A stretch of 64,000 nucleotides of DNA, from contig NZ_JARGNH010000010.1 of assembly GCF_029213205.1 (NCBI RefSeq), positions 58,118 to 122,117 of the forward strand, read 5' to 3'. A program made the translations under genes and the position numbers. Shown here piece by piece: positions 8,761 through 61,525 of the stretch. This DNA is from Pseudooceanicola sp. (lineage in GTDB: Bacteria > Pseudomonadota > Alphaproteobacteria > Rhodobacterales > Rhodobacteraceae). Within the stretch, counting starts at the first letter, position 1. Each line of letters opens with the position of its first letter. The notes beneath the pieces were generated by a model. That model did not search any database, had not been told where the DNA came from, and saw only the letters and a program-made list of their open reading frames with translations.

Positions 8761-10767
8761 TCAGATGTTGTCCGGGCGGAACCCCAGTGCCTTGTCCTGC
8801 TTGCGGGCGCGGCGCACGGTGTCGGCACGGCGTTTGCGCCCGCGCCGCTCTGACCGGGCCTGGGCGAGGTTGCGCAGAAGCTCGGCCAGCGGGCTGGGCA
8901 GACGGCCGGGCCAGCGGGCCGAGAGGGCGCGCAGCACCCGCACCATCCCCGGCGCCATATCGGCAAACAGCGGATCCTCAAGCGAAACATAGGCGGCGGC
9001 GGAGCCGCGCTGACCCTGCCGGGCGCTGCGCCCGATCAGCTGTCGGTCGATGCGCGACGAGCTGTGGAATTCGGTCAACATGACATGCAGCCCGCCCTTG
9101 GCCTCGACCGCGTCGGTCACCGGAATATCGGTGCCACGCCCAGCCATATTGGTGGCGACGGTGATCCGCCCCGGCGCCCCGGCCTCGGCCACGATCCCGG
9201 CCTCGTCCGCATCCTGGCGGGCGTTCAGCACCACCGGCGACGGCCCGGCGGCGCGCAGCCGTTCGGCAATGGCTTCAGAGGCGGCGACCGAGCGGGTGCC
9301 GATCAGCACCGGGCGCCCGCTGCCGGCGATCCTTGCGGCATCGCGCGCCACGGCGACCCAGCGGTTTTCGGCGCGGCCATAAAGCCGGGTGCGTGCCATT
9401 CGACGGCGTATGCGGCGATGCGTTGGCAGCCGCAGCACCGGGCGCCGGTGGCTGAGGCGCAGCTCACGCGCGACCTCGCGCGCGGTGCCGGTCATCCCGG
9501 CGAACCACAGATAGCGGGCAAAGAAGGTCTGATAGGTGATCTGCGCCAGCGTCTCGCGGCTGCCAGACCGCTCGACCCGTTCCTTGGCCTCGATCATCTG
9601 GTGCAACCCGCTTTGCCATTGCCGGTCGGGCATCACCCGCCCGGTGAATTCATCAACGATGGCAAGGCCGTCCTCGGTGACGATATAATCCTCGTCGCGG
9701 GCATAGAGATGCAGCGCCGAAAGCGCCTGGACCAGCGCCTCGCGCCGGGCCATTTCCGGGATCAGCGCCGGGATTGGCGGCACCAGCCCGGCCAGAACAT
9801 CAGCGGCGGGCGGCAGCAGGCGCAGGCTACGCGCCTTGCGATCCAACTGGAAATGGGTGCCCGGATCCAGCGTCGCGGCCAGCGCCAGCATCACCTCATC
9901 CGCCGCACGGGCGGCATCGCCACCGGGGCGTTCGACGGTGATGATCAGCGGCGTCTGCGCCTCGTCGATCAGGATGCTGTCGACCTCGTCGATTACCGCA
10001 AAGCCGAGGCCCCGGGTCAGGATCCGGGCGCTGTCGCGGCCGCCGTCCCCGCCCAGCATCCGCCGGGCAATTGCGGCCAGCGCGGTGCGGTCGCGGCCCA
10101 GCGCCAGCCGGTCCCGCAGATAGTCAAAGGTCACGTCGGAATTGGTGGTGAAGACGACATCAGAGCCATAGATCGCCGGGCGCAGGTGATGCTCGGTCTC
10201 TTCGGTAATGACACCATGGGTCAGCCCAAAGGCCTCCAGCACCGGGGCGAGCGTCTCGGCATCGCGGCGGGCGAGGTATTTGTTGACGGTGATGACATGC
10301 ACCGGCACCCCGGTCAGGGCCACCAGAACCGCCGGGATCAGCGTGGTGATGGTCTTGCCCTCGCCGGTGGCCATTTCGACGATCTGGCCACGGGTCAAGG
10401 CCAGCCCACCGGTGATCTGCACCGGATGATGGCGCATCTGCAACCGGCGAAAGGTCATCTCGCGCACCCCGGCGGCGACGATCCGCATCGGTCGCCCGCG
10501 CAGCCCGCGCGCCAGCAACAGCGGCGCTTGCGCCCGCACCTCGGCCACCAGAGCGACATCGTCAAGCGCCGCCAGCCGTCGCCCGATGCGGATCACCGCG
10601 CCGGTCTCGATCCGGGCTCTCAGTCCCGGCCCCCTGGTCGCCCGGCGCAGATAGGACAGGGCGGTGCGCACCAGTTCGTCGGATCGCCTTGGCGTCAGCG
10701 CTCGCCGCTCGGGCTCGGCGGTGTCGGCGCGTTCCGAGGTCTGCCAGGGCCGCGCCGCGTCAGACAT
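8761..10767 (-). CDS. SecA-like ATPase, shortened (accessory preprotein translocase motor)
   Basis: 668 residues against roughly 850-900 for housekeeping SecA. All core SecA motor motifs are present: the Q-motif region MRHHPVQITGGLALTRGQ (111-128), Walker A ATGEGKT (133-139), DEVDSILIDEAQTPLI (260-275), FTGRVMPDRQWQSGLHQ, the GMTGTA motif, ATNMAGRGTDI and RQLIGRSARQGQ. The protein ends soon after the last helicase motif, so most of the helical scaffold/wing and the C-terminal zinc-binding Cys tail used for SecB and lipids are missing. The start overlaps the upstream M50-HlyD gene by eight bases, so translation is probably coupled. It is most likely a dedicated motor for a product of this operon, namely the 11,625-residue protein; a general Sec role is unlikely given its size and location. 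Confidence 0.9.
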   Translation of the reverse strand: MSDAARPWQTSERADTAEPERRALTPRRSDELVRTALSYLRRATRGPGLRARIETGAVIRIGRRLAALDDVALVAEVRAQAPLLLARGLRGRPMRIVAAGVREMTFRRLQMRHHPVQITGGLALTRGQIVEMATGEGKTITTLIPAVLVALTGVPVHVITVNKYLARRDAETLAPVLEAFGLTHGVITEETEHHLRPAIYGSDVVFTTNSDVTFDYLRDRLALGRDRTALAAIARRMLGGDGGRDSARILTRGLGFAVIDEVDSILIDEAQTPLIITVERPGGDAARAADEVMLALAATLDPGTHFQLDRKARSLRLLPPAADVLAGLVPPIPALIPEMARREALVQALSALHLYARDEDYIVTEDGLAIVDEFTGRVMPDRQWQSGLHQMIEAKERVERSGSRETLAQITYQTFFARYLWFAGMTGTAREVARELRLSHRRPVLRLPTHRRIRRRMARTRLYGRAENRWVAVARDAARIAGSGRPVLIGTRSVAASEAIAERLRAAGPSPVVLNARQDADEAGIVAEAGAPGRITVATNMAGRGTDIPVTDAVEAKGGLHVMLTEFHSSSRIDRQLIGRSARQGQRGSAAAYVSLEDPLFADMAPGMVRVLRALSARWPGRLPSPLAELLRNLAQARSERRGRKRRADTVRRARKQDKALGFRPDNI

Positions 10768-12910
10768 CGAAGGACCGCAGGAACAGCGCCCGGACCGCGC
10801 GTGCCACCCGAACGGCCAGCGGTTTGGCGGTGAAGTTCAGCCGCACATAGGCACGCATGCCATAGGCCGGGCGGGTGCCTGCGGGCAGGCCAAGGTCGAA
10901 CTGGAACAACCGCGTCGCACTGCGCAGCGACCCGTCCTGCCCCGGCACCGTGGCAAAGGGCCCGCCACCGTCCAACGCCAGCACCGGCGAGGGCAGGATA
11001 TCGTCGCCCGCCGGCACCACCCGCCGCACCTCGGCCGGCATCACCCGGTCGGGCGCGTCGGCCAGGCGCAACTCGATCCCGCGCAATTCGCGCTGCATCA
11101 GGGCGGCCAGCGCTTGCGGCATTGCCACCCGGATCACCGGATCGTTCTGTGGCAGGATCTGCCCGATCACCGCGCCACGCGCCAGGATCCGCCCTTCGAG
11201 CCCGGTGGCGGCGGGCAGGTTCAGCCTGCCGGGCAAGGCCGCCGTGACTTCCAGCTCGGCCAACCGGGCGTTGGCATCATCGCGGGCGGCAGCGGCTTCC
11301 TCGACCCGGCTGCGCGCCTGGATCACGTTGGCGCGGCCCTCGGCCCTTGCGGCGGCATATTGCGCCTGCGCCTTTTGCAATCGCGCCGCGCGGATTCGCG
11401 CCTCGGCCTCCAGATCCGGGGCCGCAAAGCTGACGATCGGCGCGCCCGCGGCCAGGGTGGCGCCATGCGCGGCATGCAGTGATACGATCCGCGCGGTTTG
11501 TGGGGCCCGCAATATCGCCTCTTCCGGCAGCCAGACGACACCCTGCACCACGGCGTAATGCGGCAAGGGCGCGGCAAAGACCAAGGCGCCCAGCCCGAGC
11601 GCGGTCAGCGCCGCCCCCAGCACCGCCCGTTGACCGACGCGCTGGATGCGCGGATCGGTCAGCCCCTTTTGCGCGGTCTTGAGGATTGGCCAGGCCAGCA
11701 TCAGGGTGATCGACCAGATTGCCAGCAGCACCCCGACCAGCCGGTAACTGCCCGCCACGAACAGTGCGATACTGACCGAAATCATCAGCCGATAGGCGAA
11801 AGCCGCCGGCGGGTAGAGCGCAAACCAGGTCCGTTCCCAGCCGTTGATCTGCATCCGGGTGCGCGCCCGTTCGCCGGTGCCGAGGATATGGACCCGCACC
11901 ATTTCGCCCCACCAATCGTTGCCGCGTTTGGCCAGGTTCGGGATCTCGATCAGATCGCAGAGCACATGGTAGCCGTCGAATTTCAGCAGCGGATTGCCAT
12001 TGACCGCCAGCGTCGACAGGCCCGAAATGATCATGGTGTTGAACAAGACCGCGCGCACCACCCCCGGCTCGGCCCCGATCCAGAGGAAAAAGGCGCAGGC
12101 GGCGATCACCAGTTCCACCACCACCCCGGCCGCCGCCACCGCCGCGCGGTCCCACTTGCTGGGAAAGGCCAACGAGGCCGAGGCCTCGACGTAGGGGATC
12201 GGATAAAAGGCGATGAACATCAGCCCCATCTCATGCACCTCGCCGCCACGGCTGCGCACCGCGACACCATGGCCGATCTCGTGCAGGGCCTTGACCAGAG
12301 GATAGATCAGCGCGATCAGCCCGAGGTTTTCCAGATCGAGAAAGCCCTCAAGCCCGCGCGCGGTCAGCGCCGCCCAATGCAGTGGCAGAAAGGCCAGCGC
12401 CGTGGCGATGATCGCAGCGGCCAGCAGCCACCAGAGGGCGCGGGGCAGCCCCCCCAGCAGCCGCACCAGACCAATCAGGAACCGGTCCGGGTCGATCAGC
12501 GGCAGGGTGATCGACAACGGGTTCAGCAGCAGCTTTTTCCACTTCTGCGCGCGGTCCTTGTCGCGGCGCTCCAGCAGATCGTCGAGCATCGGCGTGTCGG
12601 CATTGTCCAGCAGGTCGGACTGGTGCAGCTGGCTCAGCAGGCGGACGATTTCATCCTGGGTCGGGGCGTCCTCGGCCAGCCGGGTTTGCAGGTCTTCCCA
12701 GATCGCCTGAATGGTGCGGGTGCCGTCGAGCCGCCCGGCGACCTCCTGCGCGGCGGGGGTCAGGCGGTGGACCTTGGTGCCGGTCGGGTCACTCAGCACA
12801 TACCAGGGCTGGCCAAGATAGATGTTGCGCACCACCCGCACGTCGCGGCGCAGCCGGGGCCTGGCGCTGCTGATCCGATACCAGTCGTTGGAATGATGGC
12901 TGTCGCTCAT
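10760..12910 (-). CDS. PqqD-like / M50 intramembrane metalloprotease / HlyD fusion
   Basis: 716 residues with three parts. Residues ~18-103 form a PqqD-like winged-helix domain (RPRLRRDVRVVRNIYLGQ, then HRLTPAAQEVAGRLDG), the fold used as a peptide-recognition element in RiPP pathways. Residues ~150-450 are a polytopic membrane segment with the M50 site-2-protease zinc motif HEIGH (210-214) and the distal ligand motif NPLLKFDGYH (306-315). Residues ~455-716 are a HlyD-type adaptor with lipoyl-like halves (LRAPQTARIVSLHAAHGATL), an Ala/Arg-rich coiled coil, and a beta-barrel end. The gene overlaps its upstream neighbour by ATGA and its downstream SecA-like neighbour by eight bases. Family knowledge: M50 enzymes cut transmembrane or leader segments. 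Inference: it recognises, cleaves and passes on the leader of the giant protein. Confidence 0.9.
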   Translation of the reverse strand: MSDSHHSNDWYRISSARPRLRRDVRVVRNIYLGQPWYVLSDPTGTKVHRLTPAAQEVAGRLDGTRTIQAIWEDLQTRLAEDAPTQDEIVRLLSQLHQSDLLDNADTPMLDDLLERRDKDRAQKWKKLLLNPLSITLPLIDPDRFLIGLVRLLGGLPRALWWLLAAAIIATALAFLPLHWAALTARGLEGFLDLENLGLIALIYPLVKALHEIGHGVAVRSRGGEVHEMGLMFIAFYPIPYVEASASLAFPSKWDRAAVAAAGVVVELVIAACAFFLWIGAEPGVVRAVLFNTMIISGLSTLAVNGNPLLKFDGYHVLCDLIEIPNLAKRGNDWWGEMVRVHILGTGERARTRMQINGWERTWFALYPPAAFAYRLMISVSIALFVAGSYRLVGVLLAIWSITLMLAWPILKTAQKGLTDPRIQRVGQRAVLGAALTALGLGALVFAAPLPHYAVVQGVVWLPEEAILRAPQTARIVSLHAAHGATLAAGAPIVSFAAPDLEAEARIRAARLQKAQAQYAAARAEGRANVIQARSRVEEAAAARDDANARLAELEVTAALPGRLNLPAATGLEGRILARGAVIGQILPQNDPVIRVAMPQALAALMQRELRGIELRLADAPDRVMPAEVRRVVPAGDDILPSPVLALDGGGPFATVPGQDGSLRSATRLFQFDLGLPAGTRPAYGMRAYVRLNFTAKPLAVRVARAVRALFLRSFDV

Positions 12911-14778
12911 GGCAGCCAGCGCCAGCTGAGCAGTTTGAGCCGGACCAGGGTGCCGCGCAGCCAGGCATGGGCCAGCGAGCTCCGGCCCACCTCGATCTTG
13001 GCCACCCCCTTGAGGCCGGGGCGCAGCCCGGCGGGCGGGTCGTTCACCAGCGCCTCGATACGAAACCGGTTCTCGCCGTCGCCGGGGTCAGACACCGCCG
13101 CGATCGACTGCACGGTGAACGGCACCGGCCGGTCGGGCAGTCCGGCCAGCACGGCGCGGCCCAGCTGCCCGGTGGCGACCAGCCCGAGGTCGAATTCGCT
13201 CACCTCGATGCGCAGCCGCCAGCCGTCCTGGCGCGCCACCTCGAACAAGGTATCGCCACGGCTGACCGGCGCGCCGATCCGCTGGCTCAGATCGCCCGAC
13301 ACGATCAACCCGTCAATCGGCGCGGTGATGGTCAGCCGGGCCAGCCGCGCGGCGGTCAGGTCAGCGGCGGCGCGGGCCTCGGCCAGATCGGCCGTGGCGA
13401 TGGCGGCGGCGGCCCGATCGCCCTCGGACAGCGCTGCGCGCAGGGCTTGCCGCGCCTCGTCGATCCGGGCGGCAGCGGCGGCGGCCTCAAGCGTCAGATC
13501 GCGCGAATCCAGCCGCGCCAGCCTGTCTCCCGCCCGCACCTGCTGCCCGGCCCGGGCGGGCGCTTCGGCCAGGAACCCGTCGACCGGCGCCACGGCGGCC
13601 TGTTGCTCGGCGCCCTCCAGGGTGGCCTCGGCGCGCACCCGCAACCCGGTCTGGATCAGGAATGGCAAGGTCAGCGCCAGGGCCAGGGTCAGCGTCGCCA
13701 GGCTGATCGCCGGACGTCGCCCGAACACCGCGCCCAGCCCGCGCCCGGCCCAGTCGCGCAACCGGCCCGACAGCAGCCGCCTTTCGTCATATTTGGCCTT
13801 GAGGAGTGGCGCCAGCGCCGCCGCCACCAGCTGCAATTCCTCTGCGGTGCCATCGGCGAGAGCCACTGCAGCGTCACCGGCGCGGCCGCGTTCCAGCAAC
13901 AGCACCCCGACCGGCTGACCGCGCACCAGCAGCGGCGCCGAGATCAGCGCCCCGGCACCCAGATCCCGCGCCAACAGCCGATGCGCGGCGTCGATCATCT
14001 GCCGCCCGGCCTCGGGTGCGGGCCAGGTTACCGGCACGCCCTGCGCCAGCGCTTCGTCCATCGCGGCCTCATAGGCGGCGACGGCCTGCGCCTTGCGACC
14101 AAAGGCGGCAACCCGGCTCAACGCTTCAAGCCGGACCCGGCCCCGGCGCTGCATGCCGATGGCGGCAATGTCGAACCCGGTCAGATCGGGGATCGCATTG
14201 ACCAGCGCCAGCGCCGCGCCGTCGAACCGCGCATGTGACTCACAGGCCGCCAGCAGACCGGTCAGCAATTGCGCGCTGCTGGCCTGCTTGCGCCCCAGCG
14301 CCGCCTGCCCCTGCATCAGCCGCGCCTCGATCCAACCGCATGACCAGTGCAATTCACGCATCAGAGCGCGCATCGCTGCGCCATTCGGATGCTGACCCAG
14401 CGCCAACACCAGAATCCCCTGCACCGTGCCGCCGCTGTCAATCGGGTAGCCAAGCAGGGTGTCGCTTTCGCCGCGCTGCAACAAAGGCTCGGGCTTGCGC
14501 AGCATCGCCTCGGCCAGGGTCACCAGCCGGTCGGTTTCCGCCTCCGCCACCTGCCAGCGCGCGGCCAGGCCCAGACGGCCGCCGTCACCGCGCAGGAACA
14601 GCGCCCCAGCCTGAGCGGTGGCGATCCGGTTGGCGGCGATGGCCAGCCAGCCCTGCAGGAATTCCGCCCCGTCCACCGGGTCGAGGAATGCGCGCCAGGG
14701 ATCCGCCGGAGCTGGCCGGGCGGCGGCGGTCGATGCCTCCGGTTCGGGGTTGTCTTGCGGTGTGCTCCGGCCTTCCAA
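12907..14778 (-). CDS. GAF-domain HlyD-family membrane adaptor
   Basis: 623 residues. The N-terminal ~340 residues look cytoplasmic and contain two GAF-like sensor domains (around 35-150, and 160-340 including ALISAPLLVRGQPVGVLLLERG). One transmembrane helix follows at ~355-375 (ISLATLTLALALTLPFLIQ). The periplasmic part is HlyD/MFP-like: lipoyl half AAVAPVDGFLAEAPARAGQQ, a helical hairpin rich in Ala and Arg, the second lipoyl half ITAPIDGLIVSGDLSQRIGA, and a beta-barrel ending GLRPGLKGVAKIEVGRSS. A cytosolic GAF module on an adaptor is unusual and suggests signal- or ligand-controlled export. It begins 7 bases after the DUF3467 gene and overlaps the next gene by ATGA. No ABC or RND pump gene is nearby. 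Confidence 0.88.
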   Translation of the reverse strand: MEGRSTPQDNPEPEASTAAARPAPADPWRAFLDPVDGAEFLQGWLAIAANRIATAQAGALFLRGDGGRLGLAARWQVAEAETDRLVTLAEAMLRKPEPLLQRGESDTLLGYPIDSGGTVQGILVLALGQHPNGAAMRALMRELHWSCGWIEARLMQGQAALGRKQASSAQLLTGLLAACESHARFDGAALALVNAIPDLTGFDIAAIGMQRRGRVRLEALSRVAAFGRKAQAVAAYEAAMDEALAQGVPVTWPAPEAGRQMIDAAHRLLARDLGAGALISAPLLVRGQPVGVLLLERGRAGDAAVALADGTAEELQLVAAALAPLLKAKYDERRLLSGRLRDWAGRGLGAVFGRRPAISLATLTLALALTLPFLIQTGLRVRAEATLEGAEQQAAVAPVDGFLAEAPARAGQQVRAGDRLARLDSRDLTLEAAAAAARIDEARQALRAALSEGDRAAAAIATADLAEARAAADLTAARLARLTITAPIDGLIVSGDLSQRIGAPVSRGDTLFEVARQDGWRLRIEVSEFDLGLVATGQLGRAVLAGLPDRPVPFTVQSIAAVSDPGDGENRFRIEALVNDPPAGLRPGLKGVAKIEVGRSSLAHAWLRGTLVRLKLLSWRWLP

Positions 14779-14785
14779 AGCGGAC

Positions 14786-15121
14786 TCAGTCCTTCAACGG
14801 GCCATACCGTCCCTCGTATTCACCGATGAGCTCATTCAGCACCTCGCGCAGTTTTCCGGCGGCATGCGGGCTCATGATGATGCGGTGCTGGATCTCGATC
14901 TCCAGATCGCCGTCGCTGCGGTCCCAACTCTGGTTGAGGCCAAAATTGATCACCACCTCTTCGCGGGTGCTGGTCGCGTTGCAGACGTTGCAATAGGAGC
15001 TTTTCATATGGCTGGTGTCCAGACGCACCCGGCGCTCGTCTCGGGGGGCCGGTTCCGCGACCGGACCGGTATCCTGCGCCCCCTCAGCGGCGGGTTGGGA
15101 GGTTCCGTTCTTCTTGACCAT
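14786..15121 (-). CDS. DUF3467 family protein
   Basis: 111 residues. The core matches DUF3467: a SYCNVCNATSTREEVVINFG strand pair and SPHAAGKLREVLNELIGEYE, the helix that ends the domain. The first ~30 residues are a low-complexity Pro/Glu/Ala tail. DUF3467 proteins are small and cytoplasmic with no proven biochemical role; the CxxC pair (CNVC) here could bind a metal or form a disulfide but is not a general family hallmark that I know of. It begins three bases after the stop of the giant gene and ends seven bases before the GAF-HlyD gene, so it is an integral member of the operon. A chaperone or adaptor role for the giant protein is conceivable but unsupported. Confidence 0.85.
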   Translation of the reverse strand: MVKKNGTSQPAAEGAQDTGPVAEPAPRDERRVRLDTSHMKSSYCNVCNATSTREEVVINFGLNQSWDRSDGDLEIEIQHRIIMSPHAAGKLREVLNELIGEYEGRYGPLKD

Positions 15122-15124
15122 GGT

Positions 15125-18100
15125 TCAGCCTTCACTCGATTCGTTCATGTCCGACAACAGCATAGCATGACGCGCCCGCTTGCGATCCGACGCGCCAGAG
15201 GTGGTGCCGGGGCGGGCGATAACCGTGCCGCTCATCAGCGCCAGCGCAGTGAAGGGCGACAGGTCGGTGGTCTCGGCGGGCGCGATATGCAGTGCCGCGT
15301 CGTCCTGGGTTTCGACGGCGGTCGCGGCGGCGTCGGGCAGATCGGCCTCAACCTCATCGAAACACATCCGGTGCTGCGCGGGCAGTGGCGATGAAGCTGC
15401 CGGATCTGTGCCTGCGGCCCCTTTCGGCAGCGGCGTCAGGCGATAGAGGTCACCCGCCTGCGCGTTCTCGGGCGCGGTGCCGATCAGGCAGAGCGCGCCA
15501 TCCTCGGCGCTGACCGCGATCGGCGTCGCATCGGGCGCCACCCTGGTGATCCCGTTCAGTCGCCACAGCTGATCCGGGTCGGCCAGATCAGCGGGCGAGC
15601 CGTCAAAGCAGAGCCCAGCGCGGGCCGCCCGCGCCGCCGCGCCCTGGCTGTCGGCCCCGTCCTCGACCGGCACCAGGCAAAGCGGCACCGGCAGGCTGTA
15701 GCGCAGATAGAGCAGCCCGTCGCTGCGCCCCGCGCTATCCTCCTGCGCCGCGCTGAGCAGCGATTGGGCATCACCCTGCTGGCTGTCGGACGACATCCGC
15801 AAGCTGAACAGATCCGCCGCGCTGCCGCTGCCAGCGGCGGTGATGTCGTCGCTGGCGCCATCGGTGCCACTGCCGGGCGTGCCGCCAAAGACCGGCGGAT
15901 CGACCGGGGTGACCGAGGTTCCGGGCAGCGGCCGCAACAGGTTCGGGTCGATGAAGCGCCAGGCGTCGAGACCGACAAGCTCATCCTCGGGCAAGGCGGC
16001 GAAGCGCGCCAGATCCGAGGTCGTCACCCGGCCATCACCATCGGCGTCGCCGCGCCGCGCGATCAGCGCGATCACCCGCGCTTCCGAGGCGGCGGGGTTG
16101 GTCGGCGCGGCAGCAAAGCTGGCAACAGACGGGACCGCCAGACGGCTCTCCTGTGGCGCCGGATCGGCGGTGGCCTCGCCGTTGATCTCGACCACCCGGA
16201 CCGACAGCGGCCCGCCGGAGGTGGCATAGGCGGCCCCGGCCAGCGTCCGCCCGATCAGCCGACCGAGCTCCAACATCCCGGCCTCGGGCGCGGTCTCAAA
16301 ACCGATGCGGTAGCGCGCCTGCCCGGCCAGGCCGCCGTCATCGACCCGGCTGACGCTGACGCCGGGGATCGACGACAACAGCCCGGTCACAGCCATCACC
16401 GTGCTGTCCCAGCCGATCTGCACCACCAGACTGCGCAGCCCGCCGGACTGATCCATGCTCAGGGCCAGACCGTCGCCGCGAAGGCCCAGCGCCTCACCGG
16501 CGATCTGTACAGCGCTTTGCAGGCGCAGGGTAACCGGGGTCTCGACGATGGTGATGCTGCGTTCCTCATAGCCGAGCGGCCCGGCCTCGAGCACATCCCA
16601 GCGGCTGCGCCAGCCCAGATCATCCGCCGTCAGCCGCAACCGATAGATGCCCGGCGGCAGCGCATCGGCGCTGGCCAGGAAGGTAAAGCCCATCGCATCC
16701 GCATCCGGCACCAGCGAGCCACGCACCGGGTTGCCCGCCGCATCCAGCAGGACCACATCCACCGGTTCCGCCGGGCGGCTATCCAACCGGTAGGGGTTGG
16801 GCAGGCCGGTATCGACCCGTTCGTTGAAGCGCACATTCACGCCCCAGGCGCCCGAGGTGACACGGGTGACGCGCAGGCCCGGGGTGACCACTTCGATCAC
16901 CTTGGTGGCGGTGCCGGTGGCACCGTCGTCGTCGCTGGCCGAGGCGGTGACGGTGAAACGGCCCAGCCGCTCATAGCGATGGGTCGCGCCACTGGCGCCT
17001 GCCGCCAGAGTTTCGCTGCTGCCGTCGCCCCAGTCGATGCTCACCGGGCTGATCGCATCGCCGCCCGGATCGCTGACGGCAACACTTACGCTGGCGAGGG
17101 TCTCGACCACCGAAACCTCTGGCGCGATCAGCGCGATCTCCGGCGCGGCGTTGGTGACATCGACGCTCAGGGTCTGGCGCGCGCTGCCGCCCTGCCCGTC
17201 GCTGACGAGAATCCGGAAAATGCTGTTTGCCGGGCCATCCGGCGCAACCCAGCCGAGCACGCCCTGCGGCGTCAGGCTGGCCGTCTCGGGCCCATCCTCA
17301 AGCGTGTAGGTCAGCGTGTCGCCATCGGCATCACGGGCCAGAACCTGAAGCCTCAGCGTGTCGCCCTCGGTCAGGCTGACCTGACGGGTCGCGGCCAGCG
17401 CCGGGGCATCGTTCAGCGGCGCGACACTCAGGTTCAAAACCGCCGGCAAGGGCCGGAACACCGCATCGCGGGCGGTGAAGCGCAGGCTGTCGCTGCCGCT
17501 GAAATCCGCTGCCGGGGTATAGCGCCAGAGTCCAGGTTCGACCGCGGTCAGGCTGCCGTGCTGCGGCTGGCTGTCGATCTCATAGGTCAGCGGATCGCCC
17601 TCGGCATCGCTGACCAGCAGGCGCAGGTCGATCAGCGCCGAGCTGTCTTCGTCCAGCCGCACCACCGCGCCCTGGGTCAGCACCGGCGCGGTGTTGGTGA
17701 ACCCGCCCGGCACGTCAAAGGCGAAATCGGTGATCGTAACCTGCGAGGCCTGCGCCCCGAAACCGATCAGATCAAGCGACAGCGCCAGCCGCGCCGGATT
17801 GCCCAACCCGGTGAGGTCGATGGTGATCCTGCGGGTCACGGTGCCGTCGCCATTGACGGTTTCCGCCCCCGCGGTCACCCCGGCCGCCAACCGCAGCGCG
17901 CCATTCGCCTGCAGGTTCAGCGCCGCGTCGGTGTCGGTGAGGCCCGGGATCACAGCCAGCGGCGCGCCGAGATTGTCCAGCAGCGCCATCTCAAAGGCAT
18001 CGGGCGGCGTGTCGCCGGACACCGGCAACAGGCTGCGCAGGTTAAAGCTGAGCTGGCTCGCGCCGGTGGGCGGGGTCAGGGCGCGATAGGCCGATGTCCG

Positions 18101-39100: not shown

Positions 39101-42100
39101 GTAATACTCCGCCCCCTTGTCGATTGCGCCGCTCAGGGATTCGCCCAGCGGCAGCCCGCCGTAATAGGCCACATCGGTTGCCACATGCAGGTAATAGTCG
39201 CCATCGCTGCCCGGCGGCAGCACCATCTCGGCGGTTTCGGTATAGCTCGCCCCGGCGGCCAGCCCGGCCTGGTTCTGGTGGATCACCTGGCCCAGCAGGG
39301 TGGCGCGGCTGCGCTCGAACACCGGGTCGCGCGACACCCACACGGCGTCACGCCAATACTCGGTTCCGTCCCAGACCGCTGCGGCGCCGTCATTGCGCAC
39401 GGTCCAGGTGATCTGCACCGGCTCGCCCGAGCGCGCGCCGGGTGCGGCGGCGACGGCAATCACCCTGAGGTCGGCGGCAGCACCGCTGACATCGGCGGTG
39501 CCGCTGGCCAGGTTGTTGTCCTCATCCGCCTCGACCACCGCCTGGCGACCGCGCACCGAGGCATCGGTGATCACATGGACAAATTGCCCGCGCGCCGAGG
39601 GCGGCAGGTCGAAGCTGGCGCTGGCGCGATAGCTTTCGCCGGGCTCCAGCGCGCCGCTGCGGGCCAGATCGCCGAGATGCCACAGGGTTTCGCCCGGCGC
39701 GCCGAATTCGGCACTGTCGCTGAGATAGACCCGGTCGATCCAGCTTTCCGGCGTGCCGGTCAGCCCGGAATTGGCAACCGTCCAGTTTACATTCAGCTGA
39801 TCGCGCCCGGCATAGGCCGCCGCGTCGCTGGTCACCCCTGAGACCACCAGATCGGGGCGCACCGGCACATAGCCGATGATGTCGATGCCACGGCCTTTGT
39901 AGTTGTTGTTGTCCAGCTCGTTCGGATCATCCGGGTTGATGTTGATCGCCAGCGTGTCCTCGGCCACCACGTCGTAGCTGTCCGACCAGGGGGTGATGAA
40001 ATACTGGCCCGAAGGCAGGTCCTCGGGGATCTGCACCCGCAGGGTCATCTCATAGCTTTCGCCCAGCGCCAGACCGCCGGAATGGGTGACACTGCCCAGT
40101 AGCCGGGCCGAATTGCCCTTGAGGAAATCCGCGCCATCGACATCGGCAAAGGCCGAAGTATTGGGCCGCCGCGCATCCTGCGCGATCCAGATGGTGTCGC
40201 GCCAGCTGTCATCAAGGGTCTCGCCCGCGCCCAGGTTGGTGACCCGATAGCGCACCTCGACCTCGGACCCGGCGACGGCCTGCACCGGGGCGATCACGCT
40301 GCCGGTCACCAGATCCGGGCGCGGCAGGGCGGTGACGTTGAACTTGGCTGCCGCTTGATTGTCGCTGTCGAACGGATATTCGTCGACCCGGGCATTGCTG
40401 TCCGCCGAGACGATCACATAGGCATCGCCCGACCAAAGCAGCGGCACGGTGCCGACATCCGAGGTCATGCTGTAGCTTTCGCCCGGCGCCAGGGCGAGCG
40501 GGTTGCCGGTGCGCGAGATCAGCACGTCATCGCTGCTGAGCGTGTCGTCAAGCGACAGGTAAACGCTGTCCTGCCATTCGCCCAGCGCCGCGACGCTGCC
40601 CTGGTTGATGATCTCGAAACTGGCCTGCTGGCTGCCGCCTGCGGTGACGGCGGGGGCAATCACCAGGCTCGACACCTGCAGATTGGGGCGCGGGTTCAGG
40701 GTGACAGTGAGGGGCCGGTCGTCGGCGGTGGTGTTGTTGTCGCCCGCCGCCCCCTCTTCATAGATCCCACGATTGTAATTGGTGACCACGGTCAGGGTAT
40801 AGGCGCCCTCGATCCGCGCAGGCAGGCGGAACCGTTCGGTGCGCTGATAGCTCTGCCCGATGCCCAGCGCCCGGGTGTTGGTGAAATTGCCCACGGTGAT
40901 GCTGGGTTTCGAGGTGTCCAGCGGCACCAGAACCAGCCGGTCGGTCCAGGACCCGTCCAGCGCCGCCGCACCGGCGTTGCTGACCCGCCAGGCAACGTCG
41001 ATGATTTCGCCCTCGGCCGAGGTTTCGACCGTGGCGATATCGCTGACCTGCAGATCCGCCGTCGGCGCCAGGGTGATGGTGGTCGGCACCGCCGCCGAGC
41101 GGTTGTTGTCGTTGAACACGAATTCATAGGGGCCGCCGCTGGGCGCGGTTTCGACGCTGGCATAGAGCGGCCCGGAAACACCATTGGGAATGCCGATGAC
41201 CGCGGTCCGCTGATAGCCGTCGCCAACCTCCAGCGCGCCGAGATGGGTGTAATCGACCGAGGCCACCTTGCCGCTGCCATCGGGGTTGCGCGACAGGGTG
41301 ATCCGGTCGGTCCAGCTGATCGCGTCGGTGACCCCGATGCCATCGTTGCGCACCGTCCAGGCGACGTTGAGGTCGGTGCCGGACAGGCCCCCCGCCGCCG
41401 CCTTGATCATCGTCACCTTGAGGTCGGCATAGGGTGCCCGCGCCACATCGACATAGGTCGGTGCCACGCCCCGGTTGTTGGCGGTGGCGCCATCCTCGAA
41501 CACCAGCCCGGTGGCATCGGCGACCACGTAGATCTTCAACCGCTCGGAAAAGCCCGCGGGCAGGTTGATCGCCTCGGAACGCAGATAGCTGCCGCCCGGC
41601 GCCAGCGCCCCGTCGCGCTGATAGCTGCCCAGCAGGATATCGTCGCCATCCCCCAGAATGTCATCCTTTGAGGCCCAGACCTGATCGGTCCAGCCGGTCT
41701 CGCCCCCCTTGGCGCTGGCGATATTGCTGACCCGCCAGCCGACCGAGATGACCGCCGGATCGGCCACGGTGAGCGGCGGCGCGGTGACCTCGGTGACCGT
41801 CAGATCGGCATGCGGGGCCAGGGCCACGGCAAAGGCCCGGGCAAGGGTATTGTTGTCCTCGAACTCCTGCTCTTCGGTGCGGTCGGTGGCGTCGGCGACG
41901 ACGATGATCTGCCAATCGCCGCGTGCATCTATAGGGATCCGCACATCGGCGCTGAGCATATCCTCGGCCCCCGCCGCCAGCGCGTCGCGGGCGCCGCTGG
42001 CATGCAACAGGATATCGTTGCCATCGGCGATGCCATCGCGCGACAGCAGGACCCGGTCGATCCGGCCCGCCGTGGCATTGCCGGATCCGGCGTTGCGCAC

Positions 42101-45100
42101 CGTCCAGTTGACGGTGATGACCTGATCCGAGGTGGCGCTGTCAGGGGCCGAAACATTGACCACCTGAAAATCCGGGGTGGCGAGGCCAAAGGGATCATCC
42201 GCAAGGCCGATATTGTCGTCGCGCCCGGCCTCGAACACCTGATCGTTGTAATCGGTCACCACCAGGAACCGCCAGCTGCCCGCCGCCAGCGACGGCAGGG
42301 TCACATCCAGCGCCGCATCGGTCCCGGCGCCCGGTTCCAGCCCGGCGGAATGGGTAAAGGCACCGAGGTAGCGGGCGCCGCTGAGACTGCCGGTGGCGGT
42401 CAGATAGACCCGGTCGGTGAATGGCGCGCGGGCAATCGCCTCGCCAATATTCTCGGTCCGCCAGGACACCCGGACGCTGTCGCCCGGTGAGCCGTCGGTC
42501 GGCCCCTGGACATCGCGCACCACCAGATCGGCGGCAGAGGAGGACGAGATCGACACCGGCTCAAGCGCGGCGCCGGTGTTGTTGGCCTCGTTCGCGCCTT
42601 CTTCCTGGGTGTCGGCGGCGTCGGTGACCACGATCAAACGATAGGGCCCGGACAGGTTCGGCGGGATGGTGATATTGGCCGAGGCGGTATAGCTGGCGCC
42701 GGCGGCCAGCGGCCCGGCCGGGGCCGCCACCTCGGCCAGCAGGATATCACCGGCATCAAGAACCGCATCGGAACTCAGATACACCCGGTCGAGCCAGGCG
42801 GCATCCGAGGCTGCTGCGCCGGTGTTGCCGACGCGCCAGGACAGCGGCAGAACCTGGCCCCAGGTGCCAGCGGTCGGACCGGCCACCGCCTCGACCACCA
42901 GATCGGCAATCGCGCCCGGCTGCACAGTGATCGCCACCGGCCCGGCGCTGTTGTTGGCCTCGCCATCACCCTCGATCACCTCGGCCTCGGCGTCGGTCAG
43001 CACATAGAGCTGATAGGCGCCCAGCAGATCGGCAGGCAGCAAGACATTGAGGCTGACGTTATCGACCGCCCCCGCCGCCAGACCGGCGCGGCTGACATTG
43101 GCCAGCACGATGTCATCGGCATTGCCCAGCGTGGTGTCGGTGGACAGGATCAGCCGGTCGCTGCGACTGCCCGCCGCCACGGAACCGGCGTTGCTGACCT
43201 GCCAATCGACCTGCAGCCGCTGCCCGGCGACCGGGGTGCCGGTGAGGCTTGGCGCGGTGACGGTCAGATCGGCATAGGTCTTTGCGCGCGCGGCAAAGAC
43301 CAGCTCGGCAAAGTTGTTGTCCTCGGCATCGCCAGCGGTATTGACCTCGATCACCGAGGATGAGCTGCCATTGTCGAGATAGAGCCGGAAGCGCAGGTCG
43401 CCGGTGCCGTTGGCGCCCTCGGGCAGGGCGACGGTAAAGCTGCGGCTGCGGGTCGCCCCGGCGGGCAAAAGCACCCCGGCTTCGGCGGCGAAATCAATGC
43501 GCCGATTGAGGAGAGTGGCGCGGGTGTCGAGGTTGGTGACCTGCAGCAGTGATTTGAACGGGACCGGCAGATCGGTGCTGCCGCTGTTGCGGACGGTCCA
43601 GGTAAAGGTGACCGTGTCGCCCGCCTGCGGATCGGTGTTGTCGATGCGCAACCCTTCGATCACCAGATCCGGGGCGTTGATCACGCTTTGCGTGGTCTGG
43701 TTGTTGGTCTCGCCGGTGGCCGCCGCATTGGCCTCGGGCACCGCGTTGTCCAGATCGGTGGTCACCTCGAACCCCATGGTCCCGGTGCCGTTGACTCCGG
43801 TCGGCCAGGTCAGGGTGACGCTGCGTTCCACCGTGCCGCCCGCCGCAATCGCGCCGGAGGTCGCCGGGTCATAGGCGAGGCTGCGCAGATCGAGCGTCGG
43901 GTCACCGGAGCGGCTGAGATTGCGCAGCCGCAGTTGATCGGTAAAGGCTTGGGTGATCGCCGCACCGCCGGCATTGCGCAGGGTCCAGCGCACCGTCACG
44001 GTGTCGCCCGGCAGATAGCCGGTCGCCGGTTCGACGCGGATATCCTCGACCAGCAGATCGGCCAGTTGATCGTTCAGCGCGGTGAACGCGACCGAGGCGC
44101 TGTTGTTGCGTTCCGGGTCAATGCCGCCGTTGGTTTCGTCCACCTCATTGGCGATATCCAGCTCGACCTCGGCGATCAGATCGCCCGCGCCCAGCGCCCC
44201 GGAAGGCAGCCGCAGAGTCGCCTGCCGGGTGGTGGTGCCCGCCGGGGCCAGCAGGGTCGCCCCCGGCCCAGTGACCCGGACCCCGACGATCTCACCGGTG
44301 TCGGCGCGGCGCAGGATCACCCGGTCACGGCCCGGCACCGCGGCCGCCGCGCCGCTGTTGGTCACGTTCCAGCTGACGATAATATCCTTACCCGCCTGGA
44401 CGGCCCCAGCCGCGCCGACCGCCACTGCCGAGGGCACCAGGTCGGCGGCGCTGCGCGCGTCTGAGCGGGCGGGCACCGGCGCCCGGCGCGGGGTCTCGAT
44501 CAGGTTCATCGCAACGTTCAGCGGCTCGCTGCGCCCGACCTGCCCCTCGATCAGCAAATGGTATTCGCCATCCTGATGCAGCGTCAGCACATCCTGATCC
44601 GAGATCGCGCCGGATTGCGACAGAACCAATTGCCCGTCCGGGCCAATCAGGCTGAGCCCGGCGCCGCTGATTGCCCCCTGCGTCAGCGCCAGCTTGTAGC
44701 GCTGCCCGGCAAGGCCATCGAAGCGATAGGCCTGGGTCACGTTGCCGGGGTTGAGCACCGCGTGGATCGGCGATCCCGGGGTGATCTGCACCGACTCGGC
44801 GAGGTTCAGCAGCCGGAACGGCAGTTCGGTTATCTGGTCATCGCGGCGTTCCAGCAGCAACGAATAGGTGCCAGCCGGCAGGGAAACCCGCGAATTGGCC
44901 CCGGTGTCGGAAGCAAAGGCCTGGTTGACGATCTGCCGCCCCTCGGCATCCGAGATCACCCAGCGTGCACCTGAATCGCTCAGCAGGGAATCGAAATAGA
45001 CCTCCCCCGCCGCGGCCATGGTGAAATCATAGATCAGCCGGGCGCGGGTATCGGCGGGGCTATCGCGATAGCGCTTGCCGAATTCGAGGCTCTGGCGCTG

Positions 45101-48100
45101 AACCTGGCGTTCCGCCAGCCGGAAGCTGTAGTCGAGCGGCCCTTCGCGCCCGTCATAGCCCAGCAGCAGCAACGTCCATGTCCCGCTCTGGCCCAGCCGG
45201 GTCACCGACAGGTCATCAACCGCCCGTTGCGGCAACTCGCGCCCGTCCGGCGCGATCAGGCGGTAATTCGACAGATAGGTCGATTGCGAGAACGACGTGA
45301 TGTCGAACACCACATCCTGCCCGGCCACCGCATCAAAGTGGAACACCTGCGCATCCGCCATGGCTTCGGCGGTTCCGCTGACCGTCTCGCCCAAGGCGAT
45401 GGTCCGACCGACGCCGAGGTCGAGCAGGCGGAACTGGAACGGGTCAAAGGCGCCGCCACTGGACAAGCTCAGCTCATACGTGCCCGGTGGCAGGCGGAAA
45501 TCGCGGGCTTCGACAGTGTCGATCCGGCCCCCGGCCACCTCGACGCCCGCCGCATCCCGCACCGCCCAGTGGATTCGCTTGGAGGTGGTGAACCGGCTGT
45601 CGAACATCAGCGATGTCGCCTCGGTCAGGCTGAAACCGAACCGGTCGACGGCGCCCGCGATGGGCAGGTTGATCGTGGTGAGCGCGCCCAGCGCAATCGC
45701 CTCGGGGTCGGAATTGCGGCGGGTGACATGGGCGTTGCTCGGGATCGATTCGTCGGCATCACCGTCGATGACCAGCAGATAACGCCCGGCCATCCGGGCG
45801 CGGAATTCGACCCCGGTCAGATAATTCTGCTGCACCACCTTGCTGCCGTCCGGGGCGATGACATGCCAGCGCTTGTCGGCCCCGTCATTGACCATATCGA
45901 GCGAGACATATTCGCCGAGGCTCGCGTCAAACCCGAAGAGGACCGTGCTGTTGGCCGGATCGCTCAGCACGGTCTTGGTCACGTTCAGCGGCAGGTCGGC
46001 ACCGCTGTCGGCATCAAGGAAGGCGAAAGCATAGGCGTCGCTGGCGTTGCTCGATTGCACGTCGATCTGATAGCGCCCGGCGGCCAGATCCAGCGTCATC
46101 GTATCGTTCTGGCGATCGCCGCGCGCATAGAGGTCATAGCTCGACGTGTAGATCTGGCGCGGCGCCATGATCTGGCCAAATGCGTTGCCAAGGCTCACCT
46201 TGATCGCCGAGGAATTGGTCAGCCCGTCCATGATCACCCGGGTCGGCCGGGTCAGGGTCAGGACATAGCTGTCGGGGGTGTCGGCGGCGGTCAGGGTGCC
46301 GCTCGCCAATTGGCCCAGCGCCAGCGCGGTGCCGGTCAGCGCATCGGGCACCTTGGTGCCGGTTTCGCGCATCGCGAAGGCAAAGCTGATCTCATCCGCG
46401 GTGTTGGTCGTATAGCCGTAGACCAGGATGTGATAGGTGCCGGTCTGGCGCAGGGTGATATCGCTGACGTCGCGCAGGCTGTTGAATTCAAAGACCCGCC
46501 CGCCCTCCGGGTCATACATCGCAAAGCTCATGTTGCCGCTGGCGGCAAGCTTGTCGAACTCGACGATCTGGCCAGCGGTGCCGGCCCAGCTGAAGACCCG
46601 CCCGGCGGTCGAGGGCGCGACGATGACAAGACCGGTGGCGACATTGTCGGCCAGCGGCATTGCATCGGCGAAATTCAGCAGCTCGAACCGATAATCACCG
46701 GTAAAGCCGCCGTTGGATTCGATCACCAGCGCATAATCGCCCGGCCCCAGATCCATCTGCGCCTGATCGAAACTATAGCGCCTCAGGCTGACCGCATCGC
46801 TGACCGGCACGCCGTTCTTTTCCAGCCGGAAGGTCAGGTTGTCGGTCGATGTCTCGCCCTTGAAGGCCAGCCGCTGGGCGCTGGCGAGGGTGAAGCTGTG
46901 GCGAATCACGTCGCCCGGACGTTCGATCTGGCCGGTCACTGGCGTACCGGGGGCAATGGCGCGGGTCAGCGATTGCGCCTGGGTCACCCGAAAGGTGATC
47001 TCGGATCCAAGCGCCGCCGAGGGCCGTTCATCCAGCACCAGCGTATAGCGCCCTGGACCGGCGGCATAAAAGCTCAGGTCATTGGCAAAGCCCGCAGCGG
47101 TAACGACAACCGCGCCGGAGGCGTCCAGCACCTGCCAATAGCTGTCACCACTGCGGGCAAGGCTGTCGATATAGACCTGTCCGGCACCGGTGACGTCGAA
47201 ATGGCGAAAGACGGCGGTCTTGTCCAAGACCTGGGTCACATCGCTGTCCAGCGCCAGCGCCGTCGACAGCGCCATGTCGCGCAGGGCAAAGGCAAAATCG
47301 GGGGTGGTTATCCCGTCCGGCGTGATCCGCAGCAGATAGTCACCCGGCGGCAATCGGAACTCGCGCCCGGCGCCATTGTAATAATCGAAATCCGCATAGG
47401 GCAGGTCTGCGGCCGGCTTTCCGTCGGCATCCAGAACCGTGACCTGCGCCGTCGCTTCGTTGAGGGCGTCGAAATAGAGCTGGGTTTCCTCGGTCAGGGT
47501 AAAGCGGTGATCGACTCGGCCAAACGGCACCGGGATAGACCCGTCGACGCGGGTATCCAGGGCGATGTCGACATCCTGAAACACCGCCGTATTGGCGGTG
47601 AAGGCATAGCTCAGCGGCGCGGTCTGGCCGGGCTGGGCATCAATCAGGATGGTATAGCGCCCGTCGCGTGGCGGATCGAAGGCAAAGGCCCCGGGGGTCG
47701 CCCCGACATCCAAAATCTGGCTGCCATCCGGGGCAAAGACCCGCAGGCGCGGGTTGTAATAGGTGTCCCGGCCGGTGAAGTCGGAGAAGGCCAGCGTCAC
47801 CCGCTCGCCACCTGTGGCGTCAATCGACCACAGCCGCATCGCCTCGCCCGGATCGAGGGTGCCGCTCTGTTCGATGCCACGGACAATCAGCGGCGCGTTG
47901 CGGTCGTCATGCAGCACGATCTCGGCGCTGCCGACCTCGTCCTGATAGGCGCTCATCCGCAAGGTATAGCGCCCGGCATGGACCTGCAGGCGCATCGCAT
48001 CGGCGCCCGAATTGACATAGCGGGTCAGCACGGTGTTGCCGTCCGGGTCAATCAGCTGCGCGTGGATATTGTTGATGTTCTCGACCGAGCGGCGCAGGTC

Positions 48101-50002: not shown

Positions 50003-50073
50003 AGGCCGACGGGAAAAAAGGACTTCGATCAGGCCGAAAAGACGCTGGCGTCCCCCAAGTCGATCCTGTGAAA

Positions 50074-50102
50074 TTCTTGTAATAACTGATTCTAAGTATC
50101 AT
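50074..50102 (+). promoter_or_regulatory. Sigma70-like promoter for the divergent HlyD adaptor
   Basis: TTCTTG (50074-50079) and TATCAT (50097-50102) are separated by 17 bases in the only AT-rich stretch of the 140-base divergent gap, 41 bases before the adaptor's ATG. On the other strand a TTGCCT-16-GATACT candidate for the giant operon overlaps the same site, so the two promoters may be co-regulated. Confidence 0.45.
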
Positions 50103-50142
50103 GATCTGGCCCATTCAGGCAATCAGTTGAAGACATCCATAG

Positions 50143-50979
50143 ATGAAACAATGTGTTCCGATTCTATCACTTTTTCTATCACTTTGGCTTGCTTTTGCGC
50201 TGTCCCTGGCAATCGCGGCGCTGCCTGATCGGACAATTGCACAAACCATCACCGAATGCCTGATCCAGGCCAAGGAGGTCGCCCGGATCGGCGCGGCGGA
50301 TCGGGGCGTCCTTGCCCGGGTTCACGTTGAACGCGCCGACAAGGTCGGCCGCGATCAGATCCTGGCGGAACTGGAGGCGACCGAAGAGGATGCGCAGGTC
50401 GCGCTGGCCCGGCTCAGGGTCGGGTCGGATATCGCGGTGCGGCTGGCCCGCGCCAAGGTCGCGGCGGCCGAATTGAACGCCGAGCGCCTGACGACGCTGG
50501 TCGAGCGCAATCTGGTGCCAAAATCGGATCAGGAGGCGGCGATCCTGGCCGCCCAATCCGCCCGGCTGGAAGAAGAAGAAGCCATTTACCAACTGGAAGT
50601 CGCCAAGCTGCAGCTGGCCGCCGCCCTTTCCGCCCGTGAACGCAAACGCATCCGCGCACCCTTTGACGGGGTGGTGACCGACACGCTGTTGTCGGCGGGC
50701 GAGCTTTATAACGAACAGGGGCCAATCATGGTGCTGGCCCGGATCGACCCGCTGAACGTCGAGGCCTACCTGCCCGCCGCCCGCCGCCGCGATGTCGCGG
50801 TTGGCCAGATTGCCGAGGTCACGCTCGAAACCGGTGGCGTTGCATCTGCCACGCTTGAGGTCATCGACCCGGTGCTCGACGCGGCAACCGGCACCTTCGG
50901 TGTCCGGCTCGCGCTGCCGAACCCCGAGGGCAGGATCCTGGCCGGGCAAAGCTGCGGCTTGCGCCTGACTCCGGGATAG
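50143..50979 (+). CDS. HlyD/MFP-family periplasmic adaptor
   Basis: 278 residues with a signal peptide (MKQCVPILSLFLSLWLAFAL, cleavage probably near residue 34). The remainder is a compact membrane-fusion protein: first lipoyl half GAADRGVLARVHVERADKVG, a helical hairpin ~80-160 rich in Ala/Arg/Glu, second lipoyl half RIRAPFDGVVTDTLLSAGEL, then a beta-barrel ending AGQSCGLRL. It resembles RND-type adaptors. It is divergent from the giant-protein gene with only 140 bases between them and no pump gene next to it, so it most likely works with that operon, giving three HlyD-type proteins in the locus. Confidence 0.87.
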   Translation: MKQCVPILSLFLSLWLAFALSLAIAALPDRTIAQTITECLIQAKEVARIGAADRGVLARVHVERADKVGRDQILAELEATEEDAQVALARLRVGSDIAVRLARAKVAAAELNAERLTTLVERNLVPKSDQEAAILAAQSARLEEEEAIYQLEVAKLQLAAALSARERKRIRAPFDGVVTDTLLSAGELYNEQGPIMVLARIDPLNVEAYLPAARRRDVAVGQIAEVTLETGGVASATLEVIDPVLDAATGTFGVRLALPNPEGRILAGQSCGLRLTPG

Positions 50980-60995: not shown

Positions 60996-61525
60996 GCTGA
61001 GGCCCCCTCTGCGCAGGTCGGACATAAACCGATCGCCTCCACCATTGTCCATTCAATCTGGAATCCAGCCGCGCGCGCAGCATCTCCGAGGGTGTCGCGC
61101 ACAGGCAGAGATTGTGCTTCTGCGACCGAATCGCAGGCTCTACAGATCATGAATGCAGGAGAATGGTTGATCCCGGGATGGGCGCAGGCAACAAAGGCGT
61201 TTAACCGCTCGATCTTGTGTGCGAATCCGTTGGAAACAAGGAATTCAAGCGCACGATAGGCAACCGGCGGCTGCGACCCGAAGCCGGCTTCGTGCAGCCG
61301 GTCAAGCATCTCGTAGGCGCCAAGCGCACGATGTTCGCGTAGCAGAATTCCCAACGCCTTGCGCCGGACTGGCGTGAAGCGCAGCCCTTCGCTTGCACAA
61401 TGCACCTCGGCTGCCGCCACGGCGGCATCGATACAACCTGCATGGTCGTGCTTGTCGAACCCGACTGTCTCAGACCGCGAGTCATGACCCATCTTTGGCC
61501 GACCTGTTCCTGACCCACTTGTCAT
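60992..61525 (-). CDS. zur: Zinc uptake regulator (Fur family)
   Basis: 177 residues. The winged-helix region contains FTPVRRKALGILLREHRALGAYEML and PVAYRALEFLVSNGFAHKIERLNAFVACAH. Two CxxC pairs (ICRAC, LCPTC) provide the structural zinc site. A start at 61525 is supported by AGGAA ten bases upstream; a shorter start at 61492 is possible. It is co-transcribed with znuC and znuB and divergent from znuA, the usual autoregulated layout. Confidence 0.93.
   Translation of the reverse strand: MTSGSGTGRPKMGHDSRSETVGFDKHDHAGCIDAAVAAAEVHCASEGLRFTPVRRKALGILLREHRALGAYEMLDRLHEAGFGSQPPVAYRALEFLVSNGFAHKIERLNAFVACAHPGINHSPAFMICRACDSVAEAQSLPVRDTLGDAARAAGFQIEWTMVEAIGLCPTCAEGASA

Follow-up and report, generated by a model that had tools for sequence, protein, structure and literature searches.

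We analysed a 64,000-nucleotide stretch of the genome of Pseudooceanicola sp. (hereafter the window, G000:C10:58118-122117; the genome comprises 3.69 Mb in 60 contigs and is 95.6% complete), in which positions 8761-50979 hold a gene cluster around a giant protein with an LEPR-XLL segment. An uninterrupted minus-strand run carried, in order, the genes of the giant (15125-50002), a DUF3467 protein, a GAF-HlyD adaptor, a PqqD-M50-HlyD fusion and a SecA-like ATPase (8761-10767), and the open reading frame (ORF) coordinates gave gaps of 3 and 7 nucleotides (nt) and overlaps of 4 nt (ATGA) and 8 nt at its junctions. The initial annotation had described this tightly coupled gene set, and all its ORFs, junctions and domain matches were borne out by ORF coordinates and profile searches; the third, divergent HlyD adaptor that it claimed was likewise found at 50143-50979, on the strand opposite to the giant. 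No sigma-70-like consensus match was found in the 140-bp region 50003-50142 between the giant and the third HlyD gene. Among named relatives, the Roseovarius spongiae counterparts were 81% (M50 fusion) and 85% (SecA-like protein) identical. The features of the cluster are as follows.

15125..50002, minus strand: giant LEPR-XLL protein, 11,625 amino acids (aa), GTG start (ORF and profile matches)
49730..49798, minus strand: LEPR-XLL segment of the giant (aa 69-91, MMETFEPRLLLSADLFPIAG...), predicted leader or recognition signal (NF012209 match)
14786..15121, minus strand: DUF3467 protein, 111 aa (profile match, 67 bits)
12907..14778, minus strand: GAF-HlyD adaptor, 623 aa, TTG start (GAF and HlyD matches)
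10760..12910, minus strand: PqqD-M50-HlyD fusion, 716 aa, predicted leader-binding site-2 protease and membrane-fusion adaptor (profile matches, model)
12608..12838, minus strand: PqqD/RRE-like (RiPP recognition element; RiPP, ribosomally synthesized and post-translationally modified peptide) N-terminal domain of the fusion, aa 25-101 (profile match and model)
12269..12283, minus strand: HEIGH zinc motif of the fusion, aa 210-214 (alignments)
10814..11584, minus strand: HlyD/MexA/MacA-like adaptor domain of the fusion, aa 443-699 (structure model comparison)
8761..10767, minus strand: truncated SecA-like ATPase, 668 aa, DEAD motor and PPXD clamp (profile matches, alignments, model)
10351..10368, minus strand: Walker A motif TGEGKT of the SecA-like protein, aa 134-139 (motif)
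50143..50979, plus strand: third HlyD adaptor, 278 aa, signal-peptide-like N terminus (HlyD match)
50003..50142, no strand: divergent intergenic region between the giant and third HlyD genes, 140 bp (coordinates)

The ORF of the giant contained no internal stop, and the NF012209 LEPR-XLL model matched it near the N terminus with 27.4 bits against a curated cut-off of 17 (33.6 bits in the order-wide survey below, at G000:C10:107847-107915). Past this segment follow PPC and CARDB repeats, He_PIG, Big_9/cadherin-like and PKD domains, and an HEIAHTLG metalloprotease-like motif at aa 10513. Neither an RTX motif (GGxGxD) nor, near its start, a Sec-type hydrophobic core was found in the window giant. 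A strong hydrophobic core was missing from 45 of 46 leaders measured, whose median hydrophobicity was 1.40 versus 2.24 for 62 N termini of third HlyD proteins, with 1/46 versus 28/62 reaching 2.3; the charge of these leaders was net positive upstream and negative downstream. At the other end, no conserved signal emerged from 58 collected giant C termini as a set (a few of them may be chance or antisense frames), and subgroups resembled one another. As separate observations, HExxHxxG-like metalloprotease motifs, some partial, recurred near giant C termini at the loci L061, L123, L139, L156, L164, L171, L175, L179 and L192; the window giant has only 4 cysteines, all past aa 11441 (aa 11442-11547; window 15362-15679) and within its final 190 residues, and cysteines at the C-terminal end were also seen in the giant relatives L114, L115, L116 and L118.

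The co-occurrence of LEPR and the M50 fusion was surveyed in an order sample of 292 genomes and a phylum sample of 249 genomes; the M50 search was limited to three or four scored candidates per genome, and the association statistics ignore phylogeny. LEPR was present in 27 and the M50 fusion in 29 genomes of the order sample, 23 of them shared (odds ratio 248, p 9.5e-25). Among the matches listed for the phylum sample, outside which weaker M50 matches lie, LEPR was in 70 genomes and M50 in at least 79, with at least 62 shared (odds ratio 74, p 1.2e-33). The LEPR tag and the M50 fusion were associated far beyond chance in both samples. The initial annotation had named clusters that mostly lack the giant as evidence against itself, and the results showed LEPR in 23/29 and 62/79 of the M50 genomes.

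Adjacency gave the same picture. The M50 gene lay within 10 kb of 22 of the 29 LEPR genes in the order sample, covering M50 types A, B and C. The other LEPR genes were one 14.6 kb away (G104), two on contigs separate from the M50 gene (G050, G140), and those of four genomes without a detected M50. SecA-like proteins matched at a strict threshold in 11/292 order-sample genomes, 10 of these with LEPR, and in 26/249 phylum-sample genomes, all 26 with both LEPR and M50; with the window genome excluded, 30 of the 32 phylum-sample matches at this threshold were within 6 kb of a checked M50 gene. At 18 of 33 M50 loci examined, a SecA-family gene was accompanied by differing combinations and arrangements of the giant, DUF3467, GAF-HlyD and HlyD genes. 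A further set comprised 80 named loci, the best of a longer list, with alpha-, beta- and gammaproteobacterial, desulfobacterial, nitrospiral and myxococcal records. Within these best 80, GAF-HlyD was found at 76, a SecA-family gene at 75, DUF3467 at 34, the third HlyD at 51, and an unassigned frame of more than 1,500 aa on either strand at 56; four of the five loci without SecA end at a contig end, and the fifth, L183 (a Thiodiazotropha metagenome-assembled genome), does not. LEPR was found in 44 of 49 genomes of named clusters examined. In a comparison of adjacency in the named genomes, 35 of 49 lay within 12 kb; single rows of this comparison are fallible (L180 and L184 are doubtful) because coordinates were matched without contig names.

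We examined the fusion protein in its three parts. At its N terminus is a PqqD domain whose strands and helices, in the predicted model, succeed one another as in a winged helix, and PqqD was matched in 50 of 65 M50 proteins scanned. H210, E211 and H214 of the HExxH motif and N304/P307/D312 of a second zinc motif were the same in every sequence of two alignments (31 and 65 sequences, with SecA-less clusters included). The Pfam M50 score of the window fusion was 25.8 bits, just below the cut-off of 27.2, and M50 was matched at E up to 0.01 in 62/65 sequences; the NF041824 model of the daptide RRE-site-2 protease matched all 65 at E up to 1e-5. In structure alignment the model of the HlyD part returned mainly adaptor and biotin-carrier folds, a comparison that barely probed the site-2-protease and PqqD parts. 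With the GAF-HlyD protein (a transmembrane-like segment near aa 356-374 and a weaker one at 277-295) and the third HlyD, which is divergent in the window and often downstream of SecA in relatives, the cluster has three HlyD domains, which belong to the type of membrane-fusion adaptor found in type 1 secretion. The genome has one outer-membrane OEP-family protein, on a contig other than that of the cluster, and TolC-family OEP genes adjoin five SecA-less sister clusters tested by Pfam.

We next compared leaders with proteases. In the phylum sample, M50 proteins were typed by the start position in the model (type A, 7 or below; type C, 13 or above), and pairs were counted where LEPR and M50 were on one contig and the LEPR stretch was read, giving 20 type A and 24 type C pairs, the furthest about 11 kb apart. 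L223, L227, L228 and L232 (unlinked), L229 and L230 (class B in the order sample), L109 (about 36 kb away) and L098 (which coincides with L231) were left out; further LEPR loci that were unlinked or had no pattern motif, such as L087, L097 and L101, were not counted, and the leaders of L086, L094 and L099 were read by exact coordinates. The residue after LEPRxLL was S or N in 20/20 type A pairs and D in 24/24 type C pairs (Fisher p 6e-13), an acidic residue at -3 occurred in 20/20 and 2/24, and a strict SecA-like match stood beside M50 in 17/20 and 0/24, respectively. The same split was seen within a single genome, G393, which has SGE at its type A cluster and FDAA and FDGA at its two type C clusters. 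Three giants beside M50 genes that had no family match read LEERILFDAA, LEERIMFDGA and LEPRTMFDAA.

The LEPR region also resembles a known leader. A core phi-[ED]-x-[LMF]-E was present in 16 of the 20 linked type A leaders, in 18/18 order-sample leaders from genomes with SecA-type clusters and in 2 of the 24 type C leaders, and its form phi-E-x-[LM]-E resembles L-E-x-M-E of the daptide leader motif ELExMEAP. According to the available text of the daptide report (PMC10036551), precursors with ELExMEAP are encoded next to a site-2 protease that is fused to an RRE, substitutions of L or M eliminated a modification dependent on an RRE protein, and the authors assigned leader removal to an RRE-dependent intramembrane peptidase; as given in the accessible part of a second paper, cleavage falls after the leader motif (PMC12338566). 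Like daptide MpaP/DapP, as far as that first text describes it (PMC10036551), the fusion here joins an RRE-like domain to an M50 site-2 protease and would face a similar leader core. Unlike MpaP/DapP, it has an extra HlyD adaptor and a predicted substrate of thousands of residues, and it scores below the equivalog cut-off. No daptide or other RiPP-modifying enzyme was found among the scanned window and neighbouring proteins, the scan covering a part of all neighbours.

The SecA-like protein retains the Walker A, DEVD and C-terminal motor motifs as well as the PPXD clamp, and PPXD was present in 52/52 aligned members. Its alignment to solved SecA does not extend past the second motor domain (the best matches cover query 99-601 to 99-612), and SecA_SW was matched in only 1 of the 52 (E 0.00093). 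The initial annotation had called it a SecA shortened by its C-terminal tail; truncation was confirmed, but far more is lost, since both the scaffold/wing part and the C-terminal linker are unmatched. In SecA, the scaffold/wing part carries a two-helix finger that engages SecY. The predicted structure had a predicted local distance difference test (pLDDT) score of 87, and the top TM-score among the listed matches, 0.80, was to substrate-engaged SecA (6itc). The same genome has one full-length SecA and one SecY match; a second SecY, as in the SecA2/SecY2 accessory system, was not found in this 95.6% complete assembly. The protein is thus like SecA and SecA2 in its DEAD motor and preprotein-clamp domain with intact motifs and in a model that fits substrate-engaged SecA, and unlike them in its unmatched scaffold/wing and linker, in having no second SecY found and in a gene tied to HlyD and M50 genes. 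A 908-aa protein, P0053, with M50 and SecA parts was considered as a Rosetta-stone fusion and rejected; we read it as a frameshift in a draft record, because its M50 agreement ends near residue 580 and the SecA match begins at 716 with its own start. ARAGORN called a tRNA-Asn at 10464-10555 on the minus strand, where the SecA-like gene encodes the N-terminal part of its protein; this call is probably a false positive.

The transporter module itself is already known. The available sections of Kamneva, Poudel & Ward 2015 (PMC4452313) describe a secondary SecA_DEAD/type 1 secretion-like locus with M50, GAF-HlyD and HlyD genes, in which SecA_SW is missing or fragmentary; they propose SecA as the ATPase and M50 as the membrane or pore part, and they term the biological role of the locus completely unknown. 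The window cluster fits this locus, with SecA_DEAD but not SecA_SW and with M50, GAF-HlyD and HlyD genes. A term search of the main text of that paper gave no match for LEPR, giant, DUF3467, PqqD or cadherin (PMC4452313), and the legend of its Fig. 3, in the text available, provides for neighbours of more than 1,000 aa as interrupted lines (PMC4452313). No link from the module to an LEPR-XLL or giant cargo was found in the open-licence literature searched, where the mentions of LEPR-XLL, in the portions of text available, concern subjects other than this module. What is added here is a probable cargo with its signal, the daptide-type protease link, and the pseudo-SecA variants described below.

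Compared with type 1 secretion (HlyBD-TolC), the system is alike in its HlyD-type adaptors, in the TolC-family genes beside sister clusters and in that one-step export is plausible; it differs in that the window holds no ABC (ATP-binding cassette) exporter, in a candidate signal that is N-terminal rather than C-terminal, and in a predicted leader cleavage. The statement of the initial annotation that the window has no ABC transporter does not hold as worded, as an ABC-3 permease and ATPase pair is encoded at 59434-61052 on the minus strand. This pair is probably a metal importer and not an exporter; no exporter-type ABC was found among the scanned window proteins, the search being confined to these and not extended to the rest of the genome.

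These results suggest that the products of the genes at 8761-50979 form a dedicated export route: the fusion would bind the LEPR leader and cleave it, and the SecA-like protein would act as the motor that drives the unfolded giant outward. We put the probability of this reading at about two in three. Binding, cleavage, translocation and the motor role are inferred, and we propose four steps. The PqqD/RRE-like domain would recognise the leader phi-E-x-[LM]-E-P-R in the way that RRE domains recognise those of RiPPs. The M50 active site would then remove the leader, cutting, by analogy with daptides, either at the LEPR arginine or directly behind it. The DEAD motor and polypeptide clamp of the SecA-like protein would feed the chain into an inner-membrane M50/HlyD assembly, from which the three HlyD modules could bridge to a TolC-type channel encoded elsewhere. 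A broader formulation, which we put forward tentatively, treats LEPR-XLL as a RiPP-style leader carried by proteins of thousands of residues: the RRE/site-2-protease/HlyD fusion would admit, cut and export them, and in one subtype a SecA that has lost the parts engaging SecY would thread them through a SecY-independent HlyD/TolC-type conduit.

If true, this would be a secretion pathway distinct from Sec, Tat and the numbered systems, in which maturation parts of peptide natural products have been scaled up to giants, and the leader recognition of such products would be tied to how some of the largest proteins of bacteria are secreted. The transporter module, described in 2015 as having a completely unknown role, would gain a probable cargo, and the LEPR-XLL tag a probable machine and meaning; the exit of proteins of more than 10,000 residues from the cell could then be studied with short leader peptides and deletions of single genes.

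Several results weigh against this reading. LEPR genomes without a detected M50 made up 4/27 of the order sample and 8/70 of the phylum sample. The four in the order sample are G137, G182, G236 and G280, where the LEPR frame is below 1,200 aa in three and the matches may be due to chance. Conversely, M50 genomes without an LEPR match numbered 6/29 and 17/79; on reading, two of these six (G035, G138) and a second cluster of G031 had LEER/LEPR-FDAA-type variants on their giants. The window fusion reached 139.5 bits on NF041824 against an equivalog cut-off of 300, which makes it a relative and not a member of that family, and the leader contacts tested for daptides, in the text available, are those of the RRE of MpaB and not of the protease (PMC10036551). 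The covariation of leader and M50 type could reflect shared descent, because the clusters are co-inherited units and the statistics are not corrected for phylogeny. Some LEPR cargo may also be ordinary type 1 cargo, because a giant of about 8,000 aa from Vibrio is mentioned in the accessible text as combining LEPR-XLL with C-terminal RTX and serralysin domains (PMC10868602).

Further points concern SecA. A SecA match was missing from 15 of the 33 M50 loci examined and from 12 of 12 type C loci examined. SecA-family frames without recognisable ATPase motifs occupied the same gene slot at L061, L062, L147, L175 and L184 (coordinates L061:10682-12484 and L062:7096-8817, in alpha- and gammaproteobacterial clusters; the L061 frame still scores 45 bits for SecA_DEAD, and the L062 and L184 frames, both of 573 aa, may be one cluster). 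The SecA-like protein is not an obligatory motor of the whole family, because it is missing at many loci and has lost its motifs at these five. It is likely the motor of this subtype and not a defining part, because type B and C clusters retain the protease, adaptors and giant without a SecA match; the invariant core is the RRE-like/site-2-protease/HlyD fusion. Of what the initial annotation had concluded, co-occurrence, adjacency and the covariation of leader and protease lend strong support to a system dedicated to LEPR giants, with the reservation that SecA is not universal. Its further claim, that a SecA motor takes the place of an ABC ATPase, is plausible for this subtype and had already been put forward for the module (PMC4452313), but fails as a general rule. 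After L074, one of the SecA-less type B clusters, come genes for a Ser/Thr kinase, a PP2C phosphatase and a dynamin-like protein.

Cargo length was also compared with SecA status. In the order sample, 14 clusters with intact SecA had cargo of 6,147-15,884 aa versus 3,334-4,570 aa in 6 SecA-less ones (p 6e-4), a comparison that leaves out two pseudo-SecA clusters (5,359 and 7,919 aa), G104, G050 and G140. We did not use it as evidence, because it is confounded by lineage and because clusters with intact SecA and shorter cargo exist, such as L151 (2,548 aa) and L182 (3,588 aa) in the named set.

The nearest alternative keeps the machine as proposed and makes the SecA-like protein a cytosolic unfoldase or chaperone, the push coming from the proton-motive force or from extracellular folding. 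The loss of the scaffold/wing part with its SecY-engaging finger, the persistence of pseudo-SecA in the same slot and the SecA-less sister clusters that retain protease, adaptors and giant all speak for it. Yet 67 of the 75 SecA-family genes in the named set retain at least four of five ATPase motif groups (the other eight being three pseudo-SecA genes, three cut by contig ends, and the shorter frames L172 and L178), and the clamp is in every aligned member; we regard this alternative as rather unlikely. The giant might instead leave by housekeeping Sec or by a standard ABC-type type 1 system, with M50, HlyD and SecA-like proteins serving envelope maturation, sensing or quality control. The full-length SecA, the SecY and the OEP protein of the genome would allow this, as would an ABC exporter gene near L079 (with ORFs of the same single-linkage group, by grouping alone and not Pfam, in L052, L062, L065 and L069) and the Vibrio giant, in the text available (PMC10868602). 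Against it, the window giant has neither a Sec-type core near its start nor an RTX motif, the C termini of cluster giants are not conserved, and no ABC exporter was found in the window, the rest of the genome not having been searched for one; we consider it improbable. Least credible is that the M50-HlyD/GAF-HlyD cluster exports a small RiPP-like peptide and the giant is merely a frequent neighbour. The match of the daptide protease model to every M50 sequence scanned, and of PqqD to most, would agree with peptide export, but most LEPR genes of the order sample lie close to M50, across types A, B and C, the tag sits on the giant itself, and no RiPP-modifying enzyme turned up in the part of the neighbours that was scanned.

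Some further genes lie near these clusters. A blast-linked gene family recurred near clusters with and without SecA (L053, L054, L055, L066, L081, L082, L083 and L084), and its two members checked by Pfam (L053 and L081) were SapC, PF07277. Directly adjoining the SecA-like gene of the window, and convergent with it, is the gene of a 1,518-aa Sel1-repeat and CHAT-domain protein at 4122-8678 on the plus strand; on the other side of the cluster, a DUF1775 and PCuAC copper-chaperone fusion is encoded at 51658-52752 on the minus strand.

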